From positions 1-22,100 of the IMG/VR virus record IMGVR_UViG_3300034524_000071: a stretch of DNA of 22,100 nt; one strand, given 5' to 3'. A program made the translations under genes and the position numbers. The notes below the pieces were generated by a model. It made no database searches, had not been told where the DNA came from, and saw only the letters and a program-made list of their open reading frames with translations. Origin of the DNA: a virus. Positions within the stretch are counted from its first letter, which is position 1; each line of letters opens with the position of its first letter. This document shows positions 2,999 to 21,883 of the stretch, piece by piece.

Positions 2999-3661
2999 TC
3001 AGCATATGTGTTCTACTGAAAAGGGCATATGTTTCTTGCGCCATTCTGTAGCAACTCTTGCTGCTTCAATTTCGCTGTCAAACAAACCAAGATAATAATT
3101 TTTTCCGCCTAATTGTGCTTGAGCTGCCCATTTATTCTTTTCTTTTCTCCATGTTACACCACGGTACTTGCTACTAGAATTTCTACGCGGTGAGGTATTC
3201 TGAGCGCTTTGTTGTGGAGTCACAATACGTAAGTTTGCTTTTCGATTATCTAATTTATCGCCGTTGATATGGTCGACATACCTGCGGTCGCCTACGGATA
3301 ATCCAAGAATTTGTCGGTGCATAGAAATTGTTCGATGTTTACCGTTATTCTTTCCACCGCCAAGGTATACCGGACGGGTTGCGTAACCTGTGGTGTTATC
3401 TAGATTCCAAGACCATTGATATAACCATTCTAGGTCCTCACGATCAATAAGTGCCCAACCCTTTATAATCCCGCCTTTGCCCCACAAAGGGATTCGCGCC
3501 TCCAAATCGTTTAAAATACAATCTTCGATCCTCACAGCAGACTTATAATCTCTATCAGAAGATGTATTACCCGTGCGCTTCCAACGAAGGTAATGTTTAT
3601 TACACATCCCACGTGCTCTGACAAGTTGCCCACAGCCCAGAACAGAACATCTCTTTCCCAT
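2999..3661 (-). CDS. HNH homing-endonuclease-like protein with AP2 DNA-binding domain
   Basis: This 220-residue protein has three recognisable parts. An N-terminal Cys/His cluster (C5, C10, C20, H23; GMCNKHYLRWKRTG) is common in phage HNH enzymes. An HNH core at about 112-145 shows MHRQILG, then DHINGDKLDNRKANLR with D130-H131 and N133. A C-terminal AP2 domain at about 164-210 shows KYRGVTWRKEKNKWAA and YYLGLFDSEIEAARV. Such proteins nick or cut DNA and spread as selfish genes. It is a free-standing insertion: the xkdR-like gene upstream ends 3 nt before it and the xkdS-like gene begins 7 nt after it, both complete. It is visibly more AT-rich than its neighbours, suggesting recent arrival. 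It is not expected to have a structural role. Confidence 0.93.
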   Translation of the reverse strand: MGKRCSVLGCGQLVRARGMCNKHYLRWKRTGNTSSDRDYKSAVRIEDCILNDLEARIPLWGKGGIIKGWALIDREDLEWLYQWSWNLDNTTGYATRPVYLGGGKNNGKHRTISMHRQILGLSVGDRRYVDHINGDKLDNRKANLRIVTPQQSAQNTSPRRNSSSKYRGVTWRKEKNKWAAQAQLGGKNYYLGLFDSEIEAARVATEWRKKHMPFSVEHIC

Positions 3662-6189: not shown

Positions 6190-8421
6190 TTATCCCGGCA
6201 AATTATGGAATATCACTTTAAGTTTATCGCCTACCATCCCTGCTATTTGGTCGGCAATATCGTCAAGATTTTCTCTTGAACTTACGGAAACTTGCCCCAC
6301 TAAACCGCCTAGATTTAAATTTACGTTTATTATCGTGCTATTTCCCGATGTGGTCACTGGTAACGGAGCACCAATATAGCGGCCTGTGGCTTGCCAGAGT
6401 TCCAATGCTCTGTTGCGATAAGGAGAAGAAAGCGGGATGATTGCTTCCGGACCAGCTTCGGCGACTAAACCTATATGGGGGCGGCTAAATATCCCACCAG
6501 AGGCATGAGCCGGACCTATAGTTTGCCCTTTAAACAAAGGCTCTGTGTTAGGTGTAACAGCGCTACTCTTCTCAAACCACTGCCAGGCCTGGGTCTGTTG
6601 CCTGATTTTTGGCTCTGGATTCAATGGGCTGTTTTCAGAAATCCAATTTAGAATTCGCATTACCCATGGTGCTGCCGCTATACTAATAGCAATAACTGCC
6701 TTAAGTTGAATAGGTCCTGGAGCCTGCAATCCAACATACGCCCCAAGAAGTAAAGCTAATAAAGGATGATTAAGTACTGCTGTCATAGCTGCTGCGCCCA
6801 TGGAAGAAATAAGACTCGCCCCAAGACTGGCACCTAAATTTCGAACCATTACCCCTCCTGGGCCATTCCACCACATTTCAAAGGCTTTACTGAGGTCATC
6901 TATAACAAAGTTAACTTTGCCCGCAAAATCCAACTGCTGAAACTCCGGGTTATCCAGGTAACGTACCCGGATATACCCAAATGCACTTTCCAGGTTTCGC
7001 ATAAGCGCCTCGCCGGCTTCCCTGGCAGTCCGTTCAAGGGTATTACCCCATCGCTCTACGGCATCCCCATTCTGCTCAAACCATTCCACCAGGCGCAGGA
7101 CCCTAGGTTGAATAGCCTGGCGCAGGCCCTCACCCCAGCGGTAAAGAATTTGCATGTTAAAGGTATCCTTAATGGTGCTCCACAACCCCAGGAGAGACAC
7201 ACTCTGGTTTTTCATCATGTCCTTGAAACGTTCATTCATGCCTTCCACAATGGCTTTAATCGCGGCATCAGCGCTAATACCCGCTTTACCTAGATTATCC
7301 ATCTGTTTTGCGCTGAGGCCAAACTTTTTCTGCAATATCTCATAAGCCGGGATGCCTATTTCCGTAAGCTGCATAATCTCCTCAGCGCTAACCTTGCCCT
7401 TAGCCCTCATCTGCCCTAAAGCCCTAACAGCCCGGTCAATGCCTTCGGCACCTACTCCCAACCCTGCGGCAGCATTACCTATAGCTGTCATCATCGGCAG
7501 TACATCCTCGGCCGCAAATCCGAAGGCCAGTAGCAGGCGACTGCTTTCTTGCAACTGCGGAAACTCGAATGGGGTCTTTGCAGCAAAAAGCTGCAACTCT
7601 TTAACGAACGCCGTCGCTTTCTCGGCACTGCCAAGCATAGTGGTAAAACCGATACGTGCCTGTTCCATGCTGCCGGCTAGTTCCAAGGGGGCTTTGATTA
7701 GCCCGGCGGTTACAGCAGCTCCTCCAACCCCGACGCCCAGCAACCCAAGAGGCGAAGTAACTATGCTGGTAAGCCGCCTGATGGCACCCAGGGCGGTATC
7801 TTTAATTCCCAGGGTTATATTCCAGGCCCGAGACGTTAAACCCCGCAGAGCGCTCATTATCTCTCGCGCTTTAGTAATGACCCGCTCTCGCAGATTCGCC
7901 TGCGGTTCCGCTCTTACCTGGTCGAGCTGCCGAGCCACGGCCATCGCCCTGGTGAGCTGTGCAAACAATTTTCCGCGCAGCTCCGCTACCGGCGCGGATT
8001 GAACCTTACTCAAAGCCACAAGCGCGGTCCTGGCCTCGTTAATTTCGTCCATAAGCGGCCCCTTCATGTCGGCCAGCACGTCAACTTTATTCTTCTCTAT
8101 AGCCTCAAGTATCTGGTTAATCCGAAGCACCACGGCGGACACTTTATCCTGGGCTGTAAGCACAGGAGCGGCCTGCTCCGCACCGAGCATCTTTACCAGC
8201 CTATCAGCCTTAAGTACGCCGGCGGTGAGCTTGTCTCTTATCCGCATCACCGGCTCAATCCGGAGTTTAGCGAGGGACTGCATCTGCTTCTGAATCATTC
8301 GGTTCGACTTTTCAGCTGCCTGCTGGAAACGGTTTACCCGTTCCTTAGCCCGCTCAAGCGGAGCCTCCGACTGGTCGTCAACAATTATTGGTATCTCTAC
8401 CCGGTAAATTTCACTTGCCAC
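6190..8421 (-). CDS. Tape measure protein
   Basis: This is the 743-residue tail length ruler, assembled in the tail tube lumen. The conserved tape-measure domain spans about 243-415 (MEQARIGFTTMLGSAEKA, FAAKTPFEFPQLQESSRLLL, GEMNERFKDMM-like end) and shows GKVSAEEIMQLTEIGIPAYE. Hydrophobic stretches at about 215-240 and 530-590 could cross the host membrane during genome injection. The C-terminal motif GGIFSRPHIGLVAEAGPEAI (642-661) is conserved in many tape measures. The N-terminal 55-225 region is built from degenerate units of about 29 residues. The start is a GTG with AAAGGAGG upstream, and it lies within the end of the -1 frameshift chaperone ORF. At about 1.5 angstroms per residue it predicts a tail of roughly 100 nm. 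Confidence 0.93.
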   Translation of the reverse strand: MASEIYRVEIPIIVDDQSEAPLERAKERVNRFQQAAEKSNRMIQKQMQSLAKLRIEPVMRIRDKLTAGVLKADRLVKMLGAEQAAPVLTAQDKVSAVVLRINQILEAIEKNKVDVLADMKGPLMDEINEARTALVALSKVQSAPVAELRGKLFAQLTRAMAVARQLDQVRAEPQANLRERVITKAREIMSALRGLTSRAWNITLGIKDTALGAIRRLTSIVTSPLGLLGVGVGGAAVTAGLIKAPLELAGSMEQARIGFTTMLGSAEKATAFVKELQLFAAKTPFEFPQLQESSRLLLAFGFAAEDVLPMMTAIGNAAAGLGVGAEGIDRAVRALGQMRAKGKVSAEEIMQLTEIGIPAYEILQKKFGLSAKQMDNLGKAGISADAAIKAIVEGMNERFKDMMKNQSVSLLGLWSTIKDTFNMQILYRWGEGLRQAIQPRVLRLVEWFEQNGDAVERWGNTLERTAREAGEALMRNLESAFGYIRVRYLDNPEFQQLDFAGKVNFVIDDLSKAFEMWWNGPGGVMVRNLGASLGASLISSMGAAAMTAVLNHPLLALLLGAYVGLQAPGPIQLKAVIAISIAAAPWVMRILNWISENSPLNPEPKIRQQTQAWQWFEKSSAVTPNTEPLFKGQTIGPAHASGGIFSRPHIGLVAEAGPEAIIPLSSPYRNRALELWQATGRYIGAPLPVTTSGNSTIINVNLNLGGLVGQVSVSSRENLDDIADQIAGMVGDKLKVIFHNLPG

Positions 8422-9084
8422 CGCCCCTCGCCCTCCTTTCTGCTTCCTTGCGTTCCTCTTCTTCGGCTTCTATCTGCACCTGCATCGAGGCCAGCATAAA
8501 TTCCCTTACCTTGTACGGCTTGGCATAAAACTCATCAGGGGTAATGCCGAGCCGCTGGAAGAGGTGATGCAGTAAAGCGGCTCGACCCCCTGCTTTTATG
8601 AGTTTTTTAGCACTTCTTCGGTGGTTTCAGCCTCCTCATCTGAATAACCACTCAGCTTCTCGATAAGCTCTATAGCTTTTTCCTTTTCGCCCCGCTTCAG
8701 TACCCTGTCTACCAGTTGCCATCCCGTCACAACCTTGGCTTTTTCCCAGAGGTCCTTGTTGTCCCAGAGAGCCCTTCGGTCATCGTCATGTGTGGCGGTG
8801 TAGATTACCAGCGAATTAAACTTTGCAGAATTGAATTCTCTAGGTACAGCCAGGTTGCCGAGGCGGCGGTCCTTAGCAACCTTCGTGGCCTGGTCGCGGC
8901 ATTTCTCAAACTCCTCATCGTTAAGTCCCCGCACCCGGAAAGAGAAAAGCTTTTTGCCTTCACGGACCACATCAAAAGCTTCATAGTGTGTTATCGTCTC
9001 CATTGCCTTCAGGACACCGCCGATGTCTTGAAGAATAGTGTTTTCAGCAGTTAAAAGTTCATCTCTCTTGGTTTCGTCCATCAT
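8411..9084 (-). CDS. Tail assembly chaperone frameshift fusion (GT-like product, by -1 slippage)
   Basis: Ribosomes that slip back one base at the heptamer A AAA AAC (8608-8602) leave the 162-residue frame one codon before its last and continue for 63 more residues to a TGA at 8413-8411. The product would be 161 + 63 = 224 residues. The extension reads LIKAGGRAALLHHLFQRLGI, then TPDEFYAKPYKVREFMLASM, then a Glu/Arg-rich tail ending RGGGK. It has no start codon and SD of its own suited to separate expression, and it ends just inside the tape measure gene. Its composition matches the T-domains of long tail chaperones, which bind the tape measure. The arrangement is that of lambda G/GT. The readthrough frame is seen directly; the slippage itself is predicted. 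Confidence 0.82.
8536..8608 (-). promoter_or_regulatory. Programmed -1 ribosomal frameshift signal
   Basis: The slippery heptamer A AAA AAC occupies 8608-8602 in the correct phase of the zero frame (CTA AAA AAC TCA TAA). A 9-nt spacer follows. The stem CAGGGG (8592-8587) pairs with CCCCTG (8541-8536), and inside it CGAGCCGCT (8584-8576) pairs exactly with AGCGGCTCG (8556-8548) around a 19-nt loop. Heptamer, spacer length and stem are all in the range of known -1 signals of tail chaperone genes. All elements are read directly; efficiency is unknown. Confidence 0.85.
8596..9084 (-). CDS. Tail assembly chaperone, short (zero-frame) product (XkdN-like)
   Basis: This 162-residue protein lies between tube and tape measure genes, the position of XkdN-type chaperones (lambda gpG role). 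It begins with a helical region (LLTAENTILQDIGGVLKAM), contains SFRVRGLNDEEFEKCRDQAT, a typical stretch of these proteins, and the segment NSLVIYTATHDDDRRALWDN, then ends in acidic residues DEEAETTEEVLKNS. The ATG at 9084 has GAGGTGAT 2-6 nt upstream and an ATG-ATG double start. A -1 frameshift near the end gives the longer form described separately. The two forms together would coat the tape measure and recruit tube subunits; this is family knowledge. Confidence 0.85.
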   Translation of the reverse strand: MMDETKRDELLTAENTILQDIGGVLKAMETITHYEAFDVVREGKKLFSFRVRGLNDEEFEKCRDQATKVAKDRRLGNLAVPREFNSAKFNSLVIYTATHDDDRRALWDNKDLWEKAKVVTGWQLVDRVLKRGEKEKAIELIEKLSGYSDEEAETTEEVLKNS

Positions 9085-9095
9085 TTATCACCTCA

Positions 9096-9545
9096 TTATG
9101 CCTCATTATGGCCGCGCAGGACGCCCTGGAAGTTAAGCACAGCGTCTGGCGCACCGTCTTTCAGCCCGTCTACAATCTTCTTCAAGAGTATTGCGTCCCT
9201 AATAACCGTTTCGGTGAAAGTCAGGGTTACGCTGTACCCCTGCGAAATAGCCCACTTGATCTTCTTCCCGGCAGGCTGATAATCAGAGTTCTCAACGTTA
9301 ATCTGCCCCTGCCATTCGTTGACTTCGGCCAGGAAGTTTCCGTCACCGTCATAGAGTTCACCGTCATAACCGCGCAGGATGTTGCGCGGGTCAAAGGTGC
9401 CGGAATCAAGCAAACTCTGTAAATCCGGCGGCTCGTTTACCCGGAAGGACCAGGCTCGGGTGATAACATCACCCGTTTTTACGTTCGCTATGTCGATATT
9501 CCCGTCGGGGACACATGATCTAAAGATGTAGCGTCCATCAGACAT
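9096..9545 (-). CDS. xkdM: Tail tube protein (XkdM-like, DUF2001 type)
   Basis: This 149-residue protein follows the sheath gene and precedes the chaperone, the tube position in PBSX-like tails. It has the short beta-barrel pattern of tube subunits, with RGYDGELYDGDGNFLAEVNE as the recognisable family segment and a long beta-hairpin region (QGYSVTLTFTETVIRDAILL). It polymerises into hexameric rings inside the sheath and around the tape measure. The ATG has GGAGGTG at good spacing. The gap to the chaperone gene is 11 nt. Confidence 0.86.
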   Translation of the reverse strand: MSDGRYIFRSCVPDGNIDIANVKTGDVITRAWSFRVNEPPDLQSLLDSGTFDPRNILRGYDGELYDGDGNFLAEVNEWQGQINVENSDYQPAGKKIKWAISQGYSVTLTFTETVIRDAILLKKIVDGLKDGAPDAVLNFQGVLRGHNEA

Positions 9546-9559
9546 TTATCCCACCTCCA

Positions 9560-10993
9560 TTAGCTTTGAGTTGCGGGCGGAGCGAATCTAAACGCAAATG
9601 TCAGGTATACCTTCTCGGCGCTGTCGAGGTCGTCCACGGCCACCACGAACCAAGCCGAATCGCCAGCAGGCGGGTTGTTCGGATCTTCGTAAATTGTGCC
9701 ACTTAGCAAGGCACCTTCGGCAATCATCTTGTTGATAACACCCTGGGCAGCTGCAATGAGTGTAGCCCGTCCGTCCGGGCTGTTGTTGATTTTCCCGATG
9801 AGCGGATCCCAGATGGCCGCAATGCGGTCCATCAAGTTATCCCTGGTCCTTACCCGGCGGATCTTCTTCCAGCCGGCATCCATGTCGGCGGTAGGCGTTA
9901 TAAAGGTGTTGATCCCGTATTCAATCTGCACCTGCTTCTGGGCGCTCATGGTGAACACCAGGGCGCCGGACTGGATGGCTTGTTCGATTTCGGCGTTTGT
10001 AAGAGCGCCGACAATTTCGGTAGCGCCTTTGACTACTGCATGAGTAAGGGATTCGGTGATATTAGCCGCTGCAATCATACCAGCTACCCTGGCTGCGGCC
10101 CTGTATCCTTCTCTAGCAACCCCGTCGGAGCCCTTAAAACCGTTGAGCGCATAACCAATCGGGGGATCGTTAAATGCCCTGCAATTCGTAAGTCTGGTTG
10201 ATAACTGCACGCTAGTCGGCTCACCTACAACGGCGATAATTCGCTTACCTTCGCTGCGTACCCGGTCGACATAGGTCTGCACCATTACGTGGGTTGCCGG
10301 TTCCTCGCTGTCCACAGCCAGCACGTTCCAGTCGATAGCCTCAATTGCCGAAAGTCCCGCGCTGTAGCTTGCTCCGTCTACGGTCGGATCCTGGCCGCCG
10401 GTTAGTGCCTGCTGGGTCACGGTGGCCAGGATGCCATTGCCATCCGCCAGTTTCGTGGCCGTGATATACGGACTATTGGAAGCATTCACGGCATCAACCA
10501 GGGCCTGCGGCTCTCCGGTACCTTTCGCGAAAGTAACCACCTGCAACAGCGTTACTCCTTCGTAAAGCAGGAGTTCCCGCTTAGTCGTATCGGTGAGGGA
10601 ATCCCTGACGGTCACCTTGAAGTCGTTGCCACGGATGCCCTCGTATTTAGCCGTGATAGTCACTACATCTGCTGGAGTAGCAGCTGTATCTTTAAGAGTA
10701 ATTACAGCCTTTGCGCCCCCACTACCCAGGCGGTAGCCAACCACTCTGCGGCAGCCGCCACGGAAGGCCTCAAGAGCGGTGTCAACAGTACCACTACTAC
10801 CGAAGGTAGCAGTAACTGCGTCGGCGTTCTCAAGGTAAGTCACCTGTGCCAGCGGCCCCCAGGAGGCCCGAAACAGGGCCGCCACGATTCCCTGCGGCAC
10901 AATCGCCTCCGGGGGCTCACCGATATTGGTTACCCTCACGTACACACCGGGGCGTATTTTTTGCTCGCCCACCTGAAACACAGCACCAGCCAT
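9560..10993 (-). CDS. xkdK: Tail sheath protein (XkdK-like)
   Basis: This 477-residue protein is a contractile sheath subunit. Landmarks are the N-terminal RPGVYVRVTNIGEPPEAIVPQ, the KYEGIRGNDFKVTV central insertion domain, YVDRVRSEGKRIIAVVG, FNDPPIGYALNGFKG with AAARVAGMIAA, and the C-terminal IEYGINTFIT with WKKIRRVRTRDNLM, all characteristic of XkdK and related sheaths. The presence of a sheath fixes the phage as myovirus-like rather than siphovirus-like despite its HK97-type head. An SD-like AAGGTGTG lies about 10 nt before the ATG. The gene follows the YqzN/YkzM-type gene with 7 nt between, the same order as in PBSX and skin. Confidence 0.94.
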   Translation of the reverse strand: MAGAVFQVGEQKIRPGVYVRVTNIGEPPEAIVPQGIVAALFRASWGPLAQVTYLENADAVTATFGSSGTVDTALEAFRGGCRRVVGYRLGSGGAKAVITLKDTAATPADVVTITAKYEGIRGNDFKVTVRDSLTDTTKRELLLYEGVTLLQVVTFAKGTGEPQALVDAVNASNSPYITATKLADGNGILATVTQQALTGGQDPTVDGASYSAGLSAIEAIDWNVLAVDSEEPATHVMVQTYVDRVRSEGKRIIAVVGEPTSVQLSTRLTNCRAFNDPPIGYALNGFKGSDGVAREGYRAAARVAGMIAAANITESLTHAVVKGATEIVGALTNAEIEQAIQSGALVFTMSAQKQVQIEYGINTFITPTADMDAGWKKIRRVRTRDNLMDRIAAIWDPLIGKINNSPDGRATLIAAAQGVINKMIAEGALLSGTIYEDPNNPPAGDSAWFVVAVDDLDSAEKVYLTFAFRFAPPATQS

Positions 10994-16270: not shown

Positions 16271-18262
16271 TCAAGCACCAGACACTATCATGCAGTCGCA
16301 TCCCTTGTGCGCAGGTGGATGCTTCACGTTCCTGCTCGGTACAAGGGGCCGATCTGCTCCATCCGGCTTCAATTCCTCGCCCATCTTTACAAAGGCGGTG
16401 TTAATACCGACCACCTTGCCGTTGAGGCTCTGGCAGTACGGGCAGCTTTTGCTGGTAGCTATCCAGCGGACTTTACTAACGCCTCCCAGCGTGTATGTCA
16501 TCAGGGCCACCGCATTGCCTGCCCGGACCGCTTCTTCCTGCGCCGTCTCGTCCGGCCTGTCCTGCCAGCTATCGAATTCCTCTTGCAGCACCTTCAGTTG
16601 GTCGCCGTAGTCCGGACCCGCCATCTCAAGTGCTGCCCGGATCTGCGTCAGAGACTTGCCGATGTGCCGCGAACGGTAGGTGGCCACATAGTCCCGGATA
16701 AACTCTTCAAGTTCCGGGGTAATGCCCGGCTCCGTGCCTATTTCATCCGCAACCGCCGCGTTTATCGCCTCGGCCAGCGCGTACAATACCGGGAGCATGT
16801 TTGATTCAACAAACTCTTCGTGTTCCCGGTAAAAATCCTGCAGCCATGCGTCGAACAGGAGAGTATCCACGTTCCGCCTGCCGAAGTATTTCTCGGCAGC
16901 CCGCATTATGTCCGCCTGCTCACGCTTGATGATGCGCCTCACCGTCTCGCTGATAACTTTCTTGTACGAGTTAGCCACGCCCCGACGGATGTTAGCCGAC
17001 CGCAGGGCGCGTTCTTCGTCCGGCAACCACATCCTATGCTCAATGCTCCGCTGTGCCTCTCCGGCGCTTCCGGCAGGCACCATGTTCAGCGGGATAAGGT
17101 AAACGTCCCCGCCCGGTATCGGGTTCATATTCTCCAACTCCCGCACGTCATTGGCCGACATCCAGCCCCACTGCCTGGCCGTTGCATAAGCACGATAGCG
17201 GCTTTCGATGTCGCCGCGCAGGAGGCCGTCAACAAGAAATTCGGCAAAATATATTTCCCGTTCGCCGGGCAGGAACAGATCGCGTTTAAACGCCTGTTCC
17301 CAGCGGACCAACCAGGGGCGGATAGTGTGGACGACAAACTCGATGGACTGATGTTCGATATTGGAAAAGGTTGCGCGTTCCAGGTCGGCTAACATATGAG
17401 GTGGAATCCTGAAGATACGGGCAATCTCTGTTACCTGAAACTTCCTAGTCTCCAGAAACTGCGCATCTTCGGGAGGAATACCAATCTGCGTCCACTTCAT
17501 CCCCTCTTCCAGGATCGCTATCCGGTGCGCCCCGGAAAGCCCGGAATGCATCCTCTCCCATGACTCGCGAAGGTTTTCCTTGGCTTCTTTGCTTAATTTC
17601 CCCGGGTGCTCCAAAACCCCACTCGGCCTGCTTCCCTGGCCGAAGAACCTAGCACCGAATTCCTCTGTTGCTAAAGCAAGACCAATCGCTTCCCGCGCCA
17701 TACGGATAGGGCTGTAGCCAACAAGACCGTCACCGGACAGGCCCCGGATGTGCATAATGTTCCGCTGCCGCAGGACGGCTGTGGTACCGTCAGGCAGGGT
17801 GTATTTGTACTGCAGGCCCTGGTCGTCACGGCTTACCCGCATCCGGTCCGGACGCAGCGGCCATAGCGCAACCACTTCACCCGCACCGTTACGCTGTATT
17901 TCAGCATAGGCATTACCCCATAAGGCTAGGTGCCCCATCAGCGTCTCTCGGAACTCGAATGAAGTCATCTCCGGGTTGGGCTGGTCGTGCAGGAGCGGGT
18001 AGAGATAGTGATCTGTGGCCCGCTCTTTGCCGCCACCCGGCAACCGGCGGTAAACAGGGAGGGGTAAACTGGCAACTGTCTCGGCAAGTATCCTGACACA
18101 AGCAAACACCGCCGTTGATTTTAAGGCGGTGTTTTCGTTTACCGTTACTCCCGAAGCGGCCTTCCCGCCGCCCAGGGCCTCCACAAGCCACGATTGGGGG
18201 TTAGCCAGAGTGGAACGTATTTCGATACATCTATTGCTGAACGGTATGCGGATTTTCAGCAT
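16271..18262 (-). CDS. Portal protein fused to a MuF-like (SPP1 gp7-type) head morphogenesis domain
   Basis: The frame opens with GTG at 18268. An ATG two codons in (18262) is preceded by GGGGGTGAT, giving 663 residues. Residues 30-395 (GTG numbering) are an HK97-type portal: STAVFACVRILAETVASLPL, LYPLLHDQPNPEMTSFEF, HLALWGNAYAEIQRNG, FQVTEIARIFRIPPHML and GWMSANDVRELENMNPIPGG. Portals of this family usually end near residue 420. Here a helical linker runs from about 405 to 595, then a MuF-like end has KVRWIATSKSCPYCQSLNGK, HPPAHKGCDC and metal-ligand-like C609, C612, H650, H654, C657 and C659. No separate gp7 gene occurs between portal and protease, consistent with a true fusion. Confidence 0.9.
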   Translation of the reverse strand: MLKIRIPFSNRCIEIRSTLANPQSWLVEALGGGKAASGVTVNENTALKSTAVFACVRILAETVASLPLPVYRRLPGGGKERATDHYLYPLLHDQPNPEMTSFEFRETLMGHLALWGNAYAEIQRNGAGEVVALWPLRPDRMRVSRDDQGLQYKYTLPDGTTAVLRQRNIMHIRGLSGDGLVGYSPIRMAREAIGLALATEEFGARFFGQGSRPSGVLEHPGKLSKEAKENLRESWERMHSGLSGAHRIAILEEGMKWTQIGIPPEDAQFLETRKFQVTEIARIFRIPPHMLADLERATFSNIEHQSIEFVVHTIRPWLVRWEQAFKRDLFLPGEREIYFAEFLVDGLLRGDIESRYRAYATARQWGWMSANDVRELENMNPIPGGDVYLIPLNMVPAGSAGEAQRSIEHRMWLPDEERALRSANIRRGVANSYKKVISETVRRIIKREQADIMRAAEKYFGRRNVDTLLFDAWLQDFYREHEEFVESNMLPVLYALAEAINAAVADEIGTEPGITPELEEFIRDYVATYRSRHIGKSLTQIRAALEMAGPDYGDQLKVLQEEFDSWQDRPDETAQEEAVRAGNAVALMTYTLGGVSKVRWIATSKSCPYCQSLNGKVVGINTAFVKMGEELKPDGADRPLVPSRNVKHPPAHKGCDCMIVSGA

Positions 18263-18274
18263 TATCACCCCCTT

Positions 18275-20600: not shown

Positions 20601-21410
20601 TTATCCAAATAATTTCAATTGCCCGTATCCCTTATTACTTTTGCGACAGTTACATATAAAATGCGCCAATTGTATATTCTTCTTCTCGTGTAATCCACCA
20701 TTCGCTAATGGAATTATGTGATCTAGTGTTGCAGCCAAAGGATGGGGTACCTGATATTTGAGATTTACCTTCTTCCCGCATATCTGACATCGGCCACCAT
20801 CTCGTTCGTAAATATAAGCCAAGCTAACCTCTTCAGCATATTGCCTTCTTTTTCGCGCTCGACGTTGCCTTTTTTGGTGTTTAATCTGGCAAAAATCAGA
20901 GCAAAACTGCCTCCGCTTCGTGCCGTATTCTGGCTCAAACTCACGACCACAATGTTTGCATTTAACTTGCTTATTTGCTAGCTTATGCTTAGTTTCCGCA
21001 TATTTTCGTGCATCTTGCCGCGACTTTTCTTTTCTGCACTCATCAGAACAGTATCTTGCTCCGGTTCTACCTATAAACACCTTGCCACAAACTATACACT
21101 TAATCTCATGGTGAGTTGCATTAGCTTTACATTCATCTGAACAATAATCACTTCGACTTCCGGTTATCACCTTTCCACAAACTTTACATTTCTTAGCTTT
21201 ATCGGCAAACGCACATTCCCTTGAGCAGTAAGTCGTTCGATTGATCTCTTTGGGAATAAACTTCTTACCGCAATGCTTACAAACAACTGGTGTATATTTG
21301 GGGTTTTCATAATCCCATTTGTCCTTGCATTTTTTCGAGCAAAACCTTTGCCTACCTCCAGCGTACTTAGAAGGTATAAACTCTTTTCCGCAATACTGGC
21401 ACGTAGCCAT
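20601..21410 (-). CDS. HNH endonuclease with five N-terminal zinc-finger-like repeats
   Basis: The frame opens at an ATG at 21416, but GGGGAGGA is spaced better for a second ATG two codons later (21410), giving 269 residues. Five Cys4 units of 20-25 residues follow each other (about residues 6-30, 46-68, 77-96, 107-127 and 153-176), each with CxxCGKxF, a short turn and YCSxxC. A very basic linker (KHQKRQRRARKRRQY) leads to an HNH core at about 205-263 with GGRCQICGKK, ATLDHIIPLANGG and CNCRKSNK (D232-H233, H252). It sits between the standard terminase-associated HNH gene and the cos-like segment, so it may be an inserted mobile endonuclease or a DNA-binding partner in packaging. AT-rich relative to neighbours. 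Confidence 0.88.
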   Translation of the reverse strand: MATCQYCGKEFIPSKYAGGRQRFCSKKCKDKWDYENPKYTPVVCKHCGKKFIPKEINRTTYCSRECAFADKAKKCKVCGKVITGSRSDYCSDECKANATHHEIKCIVCGKVFIGRTGARYCSDECRKEKSRQDARKYAETKHKLANKQVKCKHCGREFEPEYGTKRRQFCSDFCQIKHQKRQRRARKRRQYAEEVSLAYIYERDGGRCQICGKKVNLKYQVPHPLAATLDHIIPLANGGLHEKKNIQLAHFICNCRKSNKGYGQLKLFG

Positions 21411-21508
21411 TGCCATTCCTCCCCCAATGGCATCTCCCAGATAGAGATCCGCTCAAGCAGGGGTGGGAGTTCCCTTTTCGCTGGCCAGGCTAGCTTGAGC
21501 GGGTCTTA
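21411..21508 (-). promoter_or_regulatory. Structured intergenic leader upstream of the zinc-finger HNH gene
   Basis: This 98-bp gap holds a perfect 10-bp inverted repeat, CCGCTCAAGC (21449-21458) and GCTTGAGCGG (21493-21502), around 34 nt that contains an inner GGGAGTTCCC palindrome. A second small hairpin (ATCTC and GAGAT) lies closer to the start codon. No T-tract is present for termination. It may shape expression of the downstream gene or mark an insertion scar. The repeats are seen directly; the role is unknown. Confidence 0.45.
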
Positions 21509-21883
21509 TTAACTTGTCGTTATATTCCCAAACCCTCCGTCCTCTCTAGCTGTCTTCCTATCATGACACCGCTTGCATAGCGCCTGATGATTACCTGGAT
21601 CCCAGAACAGCCCCCGATCTCCCTTATGTGGCACGATATGGTCCACCACTGTCGCTGGTGTCAGCCTTCCTTCTTTCTGGCACTCCACACATAACGGGTG
21701 CTGCCGCAAGTACATCTCCCGGTACCGTCGCCACCTGGCATCATAACCCCGTTGCGCCGCCGTCCCGCGCTCCTGGTCGTATCGCCTGGCCTCCTGCCGT
21801 CTATGTCTAGCGCAGTATCGCCCTTCTCTCACCAGTTCCGGGCACCCCGGATAAGCACAGGGCTTTAAGGGTTTATTTGGCAT
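21509..21883 (-). CDS. HNH endonuclease, terminase-associated type (HK97 gp74-like)
   Basis: This 124-residue protein is the small HNH endonuclease commonly encoded just upstream of terminase in HK97-like phages, where it cooperates with terminase in cutting DNA at cos. A Cys cluster lies at the N-terminus (CAYPGCPELVREGRYC then ARHRRQEARRYD). The core has HPLCVECQKEGRLTPATVVD, then HIVPHKGDRGLFWDPGNHQAL and CKRCHDRKTAREDGG, with the D-H, N and H residues and two CxxC pairs in order. The ATG has GGGGGTGA at good spacing. Unlike the usual layout it is separated from terS by another HNH gene. Confidence 0.93.
   Translation of the reverse strand: MPNKPLKPCAYPGCPELVREGRYCARHRRQEARRYDQERGTAAQRGYDARWRRYREMYLRQHPLCVECQKEGRLTPATVVDHIVPHKGDRGLFWDPGNHQALCKRCHDRKTAREDGGFGNITTS

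Follow-up and report, generated by a model that had tools for sequence, protein, structure and literature searches.

Programmed frameshifting of the lambda G/GT type in tail assembly chaperone genes is textbook knowledge and has been known since phage lambda. In lambda, the tape measure is bound by G and by the G part of GT, and T binds the tail tube subunit; assembly needs a low ratio of the two products, and G and GT are both absent from the virion (PMC5009743). The frameshift work on lambda G/GT (Levin 1993; Xu 2004, 2013, 2014) is cited here as reviewed in PMC5009743. Bacillota phages with G/GT-type genes have been described for Paenibacillus larvae, where AAAAAAC was tentatively proposed as the slip site of phage Dragolir and AAAAAAG was assigned to the other phages of that study (PMC6003738). 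For phiCD508, the XkdN-like chaperone was undetected in virions (PMC11948020). In the openly accessible literature we found no description of the PF08890 family as one that uses A AAA AAC throughout.

The locus studied here resembles lambda G/GT in that the slip site lies between the tail tube and tape-measure genes, a short product and a fusion are predicted, and low use is expected. It also resembles the Paenibacillus larvae genes as a G/GT-type locus of a Bacillota phage. Unlike lambda, it has the heptamer A AAA AAC ending one codon before the stop, a Bacillota host lineage, a contractile tail, a strong downstream stem and a chaperone of the XkdN/PF08890 family. The kind of cassette is well known, and this one is a further member of a family with an invariant heptamer.

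The tail module and the layout of the probable cassette

The window, by which we mean the whole stretch of viral DNA analysed, comprises 22,100 nt (positions 1 to 22,100 of IMG/VR record IMGVR_UViG_3300034524_000071). Profile searches of the window gave the minus-strand gene order tail sheath, tail tube, XkdN-type chaperone and tape-measure protein (Table 1), so that the chaperone gene is placed as in known G/GT systems. The sheath gene shows that the tail is contractile (myovirus-type). The chaperone matched PF08890 (Phage_TAC_5) at E=9.1e-16 with 58.5 bits against a curated cut-off of 27, and phrog_389 (tail protein XkdN-like) at E=1.5e-23. In a comparison with solved structures no homologue of the chaperone appeared, and designed repeat proteins alone matched, with borderline scores. 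By analogy with lambda, the tail tube protein is likely the partner of the T-like domain, and the G-like part would bind the tape measure. The nearest relatives of the phage sit in thermophilic Bacillota, e.g. Moorella, Desulfovirgula and Thermoanaerobacteraceae.

Table 1. Coordinates of the tail genes and of the elements of the putative frameshift cassette in the window.
Feature	Coordinates	Strand	Evidence or remark
Tail sheath protein	9560..10993	-	phrog_279 E=4.3e-101; PF04984 E=5.8e-21
Tail tube protein	9096..9545	-	phrog_365 E=8.1e-11; DUF2001 tail tube 6.8e-4, under its own cut-off
Tail assembly chaperone, zero-frame product (G-like), XkdN-type, 162 aa	8596..9084	-	PF08890, phrog_389
Slippery heptamer A AAA AAC, zero-frame phase	8602..8608	-	sequence; relatives
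9-nt spacer TCATAAAAG, heptamer to outer stem	8593..8601	-	sequence, fold
Zero-frame stop TAA	8596..8598	-	separated from the heptamer by one sense codon (TCA)
-1-frame extension (T-like domain), 63 codons, LIKAGGRAALLHHLFQR...GGGK	8411..8602	-	open frame, homologous relatives
Outer stem 5' arm CAGGGG	8587..8592	-	folding; synonymous-site covariation, 106 relatives
Inner stem 5' arm GTCGAGCCGCT	8576..8586	-	fold; 9 perfect bp starting at 8584, with G-C and U-G added
Inner stem 3' arm AGCGGCTCGGC	8546..8556	-	fold
Outer stem 3' arm CCCCTG	8536..8541	-	folding; covariation
Tape-measure protein, 743 aa, GTG start at 8421, overlaps the extension end	6190..8421	-	PF20155 TMP_3 E=1.5e-24; phrog_12798 E=8.9e-49

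A preceding sequence-only reading had placed a complete -1 frameshift cassette at 8411-8608, and these coordinates proved exact, on the minus strand. The chaperone ORF ends in GTG CTA AAA AAC TCA TAA, with A AAA AAC in the right phase, as had been claimed, and it is the sole in-phase X XXY YYZ within the gene. The earlier description put the heptamer two codons ahead of the stop, which is roughly correct, a single sense codon intervening. The 9-nt spacer is there, and the -1 frame runs for the expected 63 codons (LIKAGGRAALLHHLFQRLGITPDEFYAKPYKVREFMLASMQVQIEAEEEERKEAERRARGGGK) before it closes at TGA (8413-8411), within the tape-measure ORF. The predicted fusion accordingly has 161 + 63 = 224 aa, the length given earlier. 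The stretch between the called genes (8422-8595) measures 174 bp, close to the false gap of about 175 bp that had been foreseen.

Judging from these features and from the relatives described below, 8411-8608 is very probably a cassette for programmed -1 ribosomal frameshifting of the lambda G/GT type. Most ribosomes would read A AAA AAC TCA TAA and terminate, yielding the 162-aa chaperone. A minority would stall at the RNA stem 3' of the heptamer, where tRNA-Lys and tRNA-Asn could slip one base back on AAAAAAC, and the slipped ribosomes would translate the 63 further codons of the 224-aa fusion. A low ratio of fusion to short product would be important in tail assembly. In E. coli, A_AAA_AAC is less effective as a -1 site than A_AAA_AAG (PMC5009743), and such a site fits a low-level fusion product, which by analogy would be acceptable for G/GT. 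Zero-frame readthrough was considered as a separate candidate and rejected: the next stop in that frame comes ~30 codons on in the window, and a conserved frame is absent.

The heptamer by itself says little. AAAAAAC occurs six times in the window against 4.0 +/- 2.0 expected and is not rare per se, and a frequency about as expected would suit a reading without any recoding, in which the extension is a decayed or chance open frame past an ordinary stop. The case therefore rests on the phase, place and conservation of the heptamer; these, together with the fold, are beyond chance.

Conservation of the heptamer among relatives

With the extension as the query, a scan of genome contigs from IMG/VR and GTDB found AAAAAAC at the junction in 160/160 loci, a count biased by one search pattern that held KKLI. 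Since this pattern favours the heptamer, the scan was redone with downstream-residue patterns only, and AAAAAAC was present in 77 of the 78 loci with readable upstream sequence; the two scans overlap, many contigs being common to both. A further sample was drawn from the zero frame: whole genomes were searched with the PF08890 HMM as the sole query, a profile blind to the extension. All 72 PF08890 genes sampled in this way, which span a wide score range, carried an in-phase AAAAAAC near the stop, and in each a -1 extension followed, 47-71 codons long, including cases in which it had diverged past easy alignment. The large zero-frame sample came from the order of the Paenibacillus genome, and a class-level search around Moorella covered 22 genomes and gave two matches. 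B. subtilis, too, has a PF08890 gene. The alignment of homologues that the sequence-only reading had named as a check thus bears it out for both the heptamer and the downstream frame. Absence of recoding has close to no probability: 72/72 is impossible by chance, and the extension can be aligned as protein even between members that are very distant, and its evolution follows the -1 frame.

In 103 of the 106 non-redundant relatives the zero-frame stop begins at +7 or +10, counted from the heptamer, and in the others at +28. The same layout was found in distant members, namely the Clostridioides phages phiCD27 and phiCD418, Geobacillus phiOH2 and Sporosarcina Lietuvens, as well as in Selenomonas, Anoxybacillus and Paenibacillus among distant phages and plasmid prophages. 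The XkdN-like genes of the four named phages are like that of the window in having A AAA AAC before the stop, a -1 extension and a tape-measure gene downstream. PF08890 was scanned and matched for three of the four; their extensions have diverged (29-72% identical in the matched stretch), and none of these genes is annotated as a fusion. Overall, the relatives speak very strongly for a functional -1 programmed frameshift, and they favour the lambda-like mechanism first proposed from the window.

Loss of the heptamer in homologues, which would have spoken against this proposal, was looked for and seen once. The sole relative that has kept the extension and lost the heptamer (L192, IMGVR_UViG_2617270891_000004) reads GCACGGGACTGA. 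A sheath gene was not found in its 23-kb prophage fragment, a baseplate-like gene comes after the chaperone, and the tape-measure gene is ~6 kb off. The locus looks rearranged, and its slip site was possibly lost once the tail module had stopped working.

Selection on the slip site and on the extension

The residue preceding Lys-Asn varies among Ala, Leu, Ile, Val and Ser, and the last base of its codon is A in 106/106 non-redundant relatives, a pattern that points to selection on the nucleotide. The A run has exactly six bases: it is preceded by T or C in every sequence (161/161 and 72/72) and always followed by C. This homopolymeric run might suggest that the polymerase slips on A6, such that some mRNAs lose or gain bases and the identical fusion results without any ribosomal frameshift. 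Efficient transcriptional slippage, however, usually takes about 8-9 or more A or T residues, and if polymerase slippage were selected for, one would expect longer runs than the six A found in every case, never more. In addition, the phase of the heptamer is X XXY YYZ without exception, and a structured element follows it, as the ribosome model expects. We therefore consider transcriptional slippage very unlikely and take the slippage to be, in all probability, ribosomal.

Comparison of the window with eight relatives in the first 26 codons of the extension gave 18/0/92 differences at -1-frame positions 1/2/3, which reads as a clear signature of coding in the -1 frame. Members far apart in the family can still be aligned over the extension as protein, and the N-terminal LIKAGG segment of the extension is its best-conserved part.

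A 5' internal Shine-Dalgarno stimulator of the dnaX type would be a purine-rich element about 10 nt before the heptamer. The heptamer of the window is preceded by GAAGAAG. Among Glu-Glu pairs at codons -4/-3, relatives favour GAG GAA (42 of 65), at a spacing that is short for a -1 stimulator. Taken singly, the Glu codons of relatives are GAG at -4 in 52/77 and GAA at -3 in 78/89, and the preference for GAG GAA places AGGA ~6 nt before the heptamer in many of them. This AGGA element of the relatives is a possible SD-like stimulator, absent from the window.

Annotation of the extension

We surveyed the annotation of the extension in eight records; the gene tables of plasmids were incomplete. In seven of the eight annotated relatives the extension had been left as a gap of about 175-200 bp, much as the sequence-only reading had expected of automatic gene callers. 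The eighth departs from this expectation: in Lietuvens the extension is a separate ORF labelled 'hypothetical protein'. A joined gene was annotated in 0/8. A model for the extension was not found in Pfam or NCBIfam, and the PF08890 profile stops at the slip site in many members. Two PHROGs families of 'unknown function', phrog_4503 and phrog_5646 (50 and 39 aa), match the extension; for phrog_4503 the values are 4.9e-9 in Lietuvens and 9.6e-4 in the window. Both families probably consist of T-like domains whose gene calls were truncated.

Taken at face value, the annotation of Sporosarcina phage Lietuvens (ORF17) and the two short PHROGs families would favour independent initiation or coupled restart, with the extension as a separate small protein that has its own start. 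Nevertheless, ATG, GTG and TTG are absent from the -1 frame between the upstream stop and the conserved LIKAGG in 102/106 relatives, yet this N-terminal segment is the most conserved. Independent initiation would also leave the invariant in-phase heptamer unexplained, and we regard it as extremely improbable. Under a programmed frameshift, a simple annotation rule follows: every PF08890 gene should be carried via A AAA AAC into the -1 frame.

Structure of the RNA downstream of the heptamer

The region after the heptamer in the window folds at -34.1 kcal/mol (dinucleotide z = -5.9), and 0/200 shuffles were as good. The two-part stem that had been described, CAGGGG/CCCCTG followed by a perfect 9-bp stem, is present. 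Its 9-bp core pairs CGAGCCGCT (8584-8576) with AGCGGCTCG (8556-8548); when folded, the inner stem lengthens to 11 bp via a G-C and a U-G pair, and the outer stem has 6 bp. What did not extend to the family is the exact inner stem, which is confined to the window's own lineage.

Stable structure 5-9 nt past the heptamer, beyond what the sequence would lead one to expect, was found both in the window and in the family. For 57 non-redundant relatives selected through the zero frame, dinucleotide shuffles of the 73 nt after the heptamer gave a mean z of -2.40, with 36/57 below -2. By contrast, two control stretches further downstream in the same relatives gave mean z values of -0.35 and -0.41. The 106 relatives selected through the extension behaved similarly (z -2.04 after the heptamer vs -0.44 for the control). 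Folding beyond the dinucleotide expectation is thus confined to the stretch directly after the heptamer.

We also permuted synonymous codons within alignment columns. In this comparison the outer stem GGnGG/CCnCC was fully paired in 36/106 relatives vs 13.1 +/- 3.2 under permutation (maximum 24 of 1000), and the synonymous pair 20-68 was paired in 64 vs 39.4 +/- 4.6, figures to be read with the controls of the same test, which also deviate (z -2 to -7) as relatedness inflates the statistic. Because the control windows deviate, we prefer the dinucleotide-shuffle contrast. One alignment (A5) was hand-picked after the folds had been seen, and its covariation count is optimistic; the unselected set of 106 relatives therefore serves as the main evidence. 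Within the window's own clade, covariation of the inner stem was not significant, and the stem is kept in several close relatives. Taken together, the comparisons indicate that the outer stem covaries and that the exact inner stem is lineage-specific.

Other members have the inner stem in a shifted register, or a local hairpin on the same AGG codons, and the stems behind the heptamer in phiCD27, phiCD418, phiOH2 and Lietuvens differ from that of the window in sequence and topology. One might speculate that the PF08890 family is locked to A AAA AAC with exactly six A, that its stimulatory RNA adopts one of two mutually exclusive folds on the same codons (either the local hairpin GCAGGnGG/CCnCCTGC or long-range pairing of GGnGG with CCnCC), and that the choice of stem tunes the ratio of chaperone to fusion across lineages; we hold this full proposal to be rather unlikely. 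A search of Rfam gave no match within the window. With its many natural stimulatory stems downstream of a single fixed heptamer, the family lends itself to the study of what determines frameshift efficiency in Bacillota.

Other features of the window

A gene within the tail/baseplate cluster (2999-3661, minus strand) encodes an HNH endonuclease that is free-standing and also contains an AP2 domain (PF13392, PF00847); it is likely a homing enzyme. Further HNH proteins, which carry other domains, are encoded at 20601-21416 and 21509-21883. The portal protein (16271-18268, minus strand) has 665 aa, of which the Pfam portal match spans residues 53-380 only, and its long C-terminal part might be a fused minor head domain.
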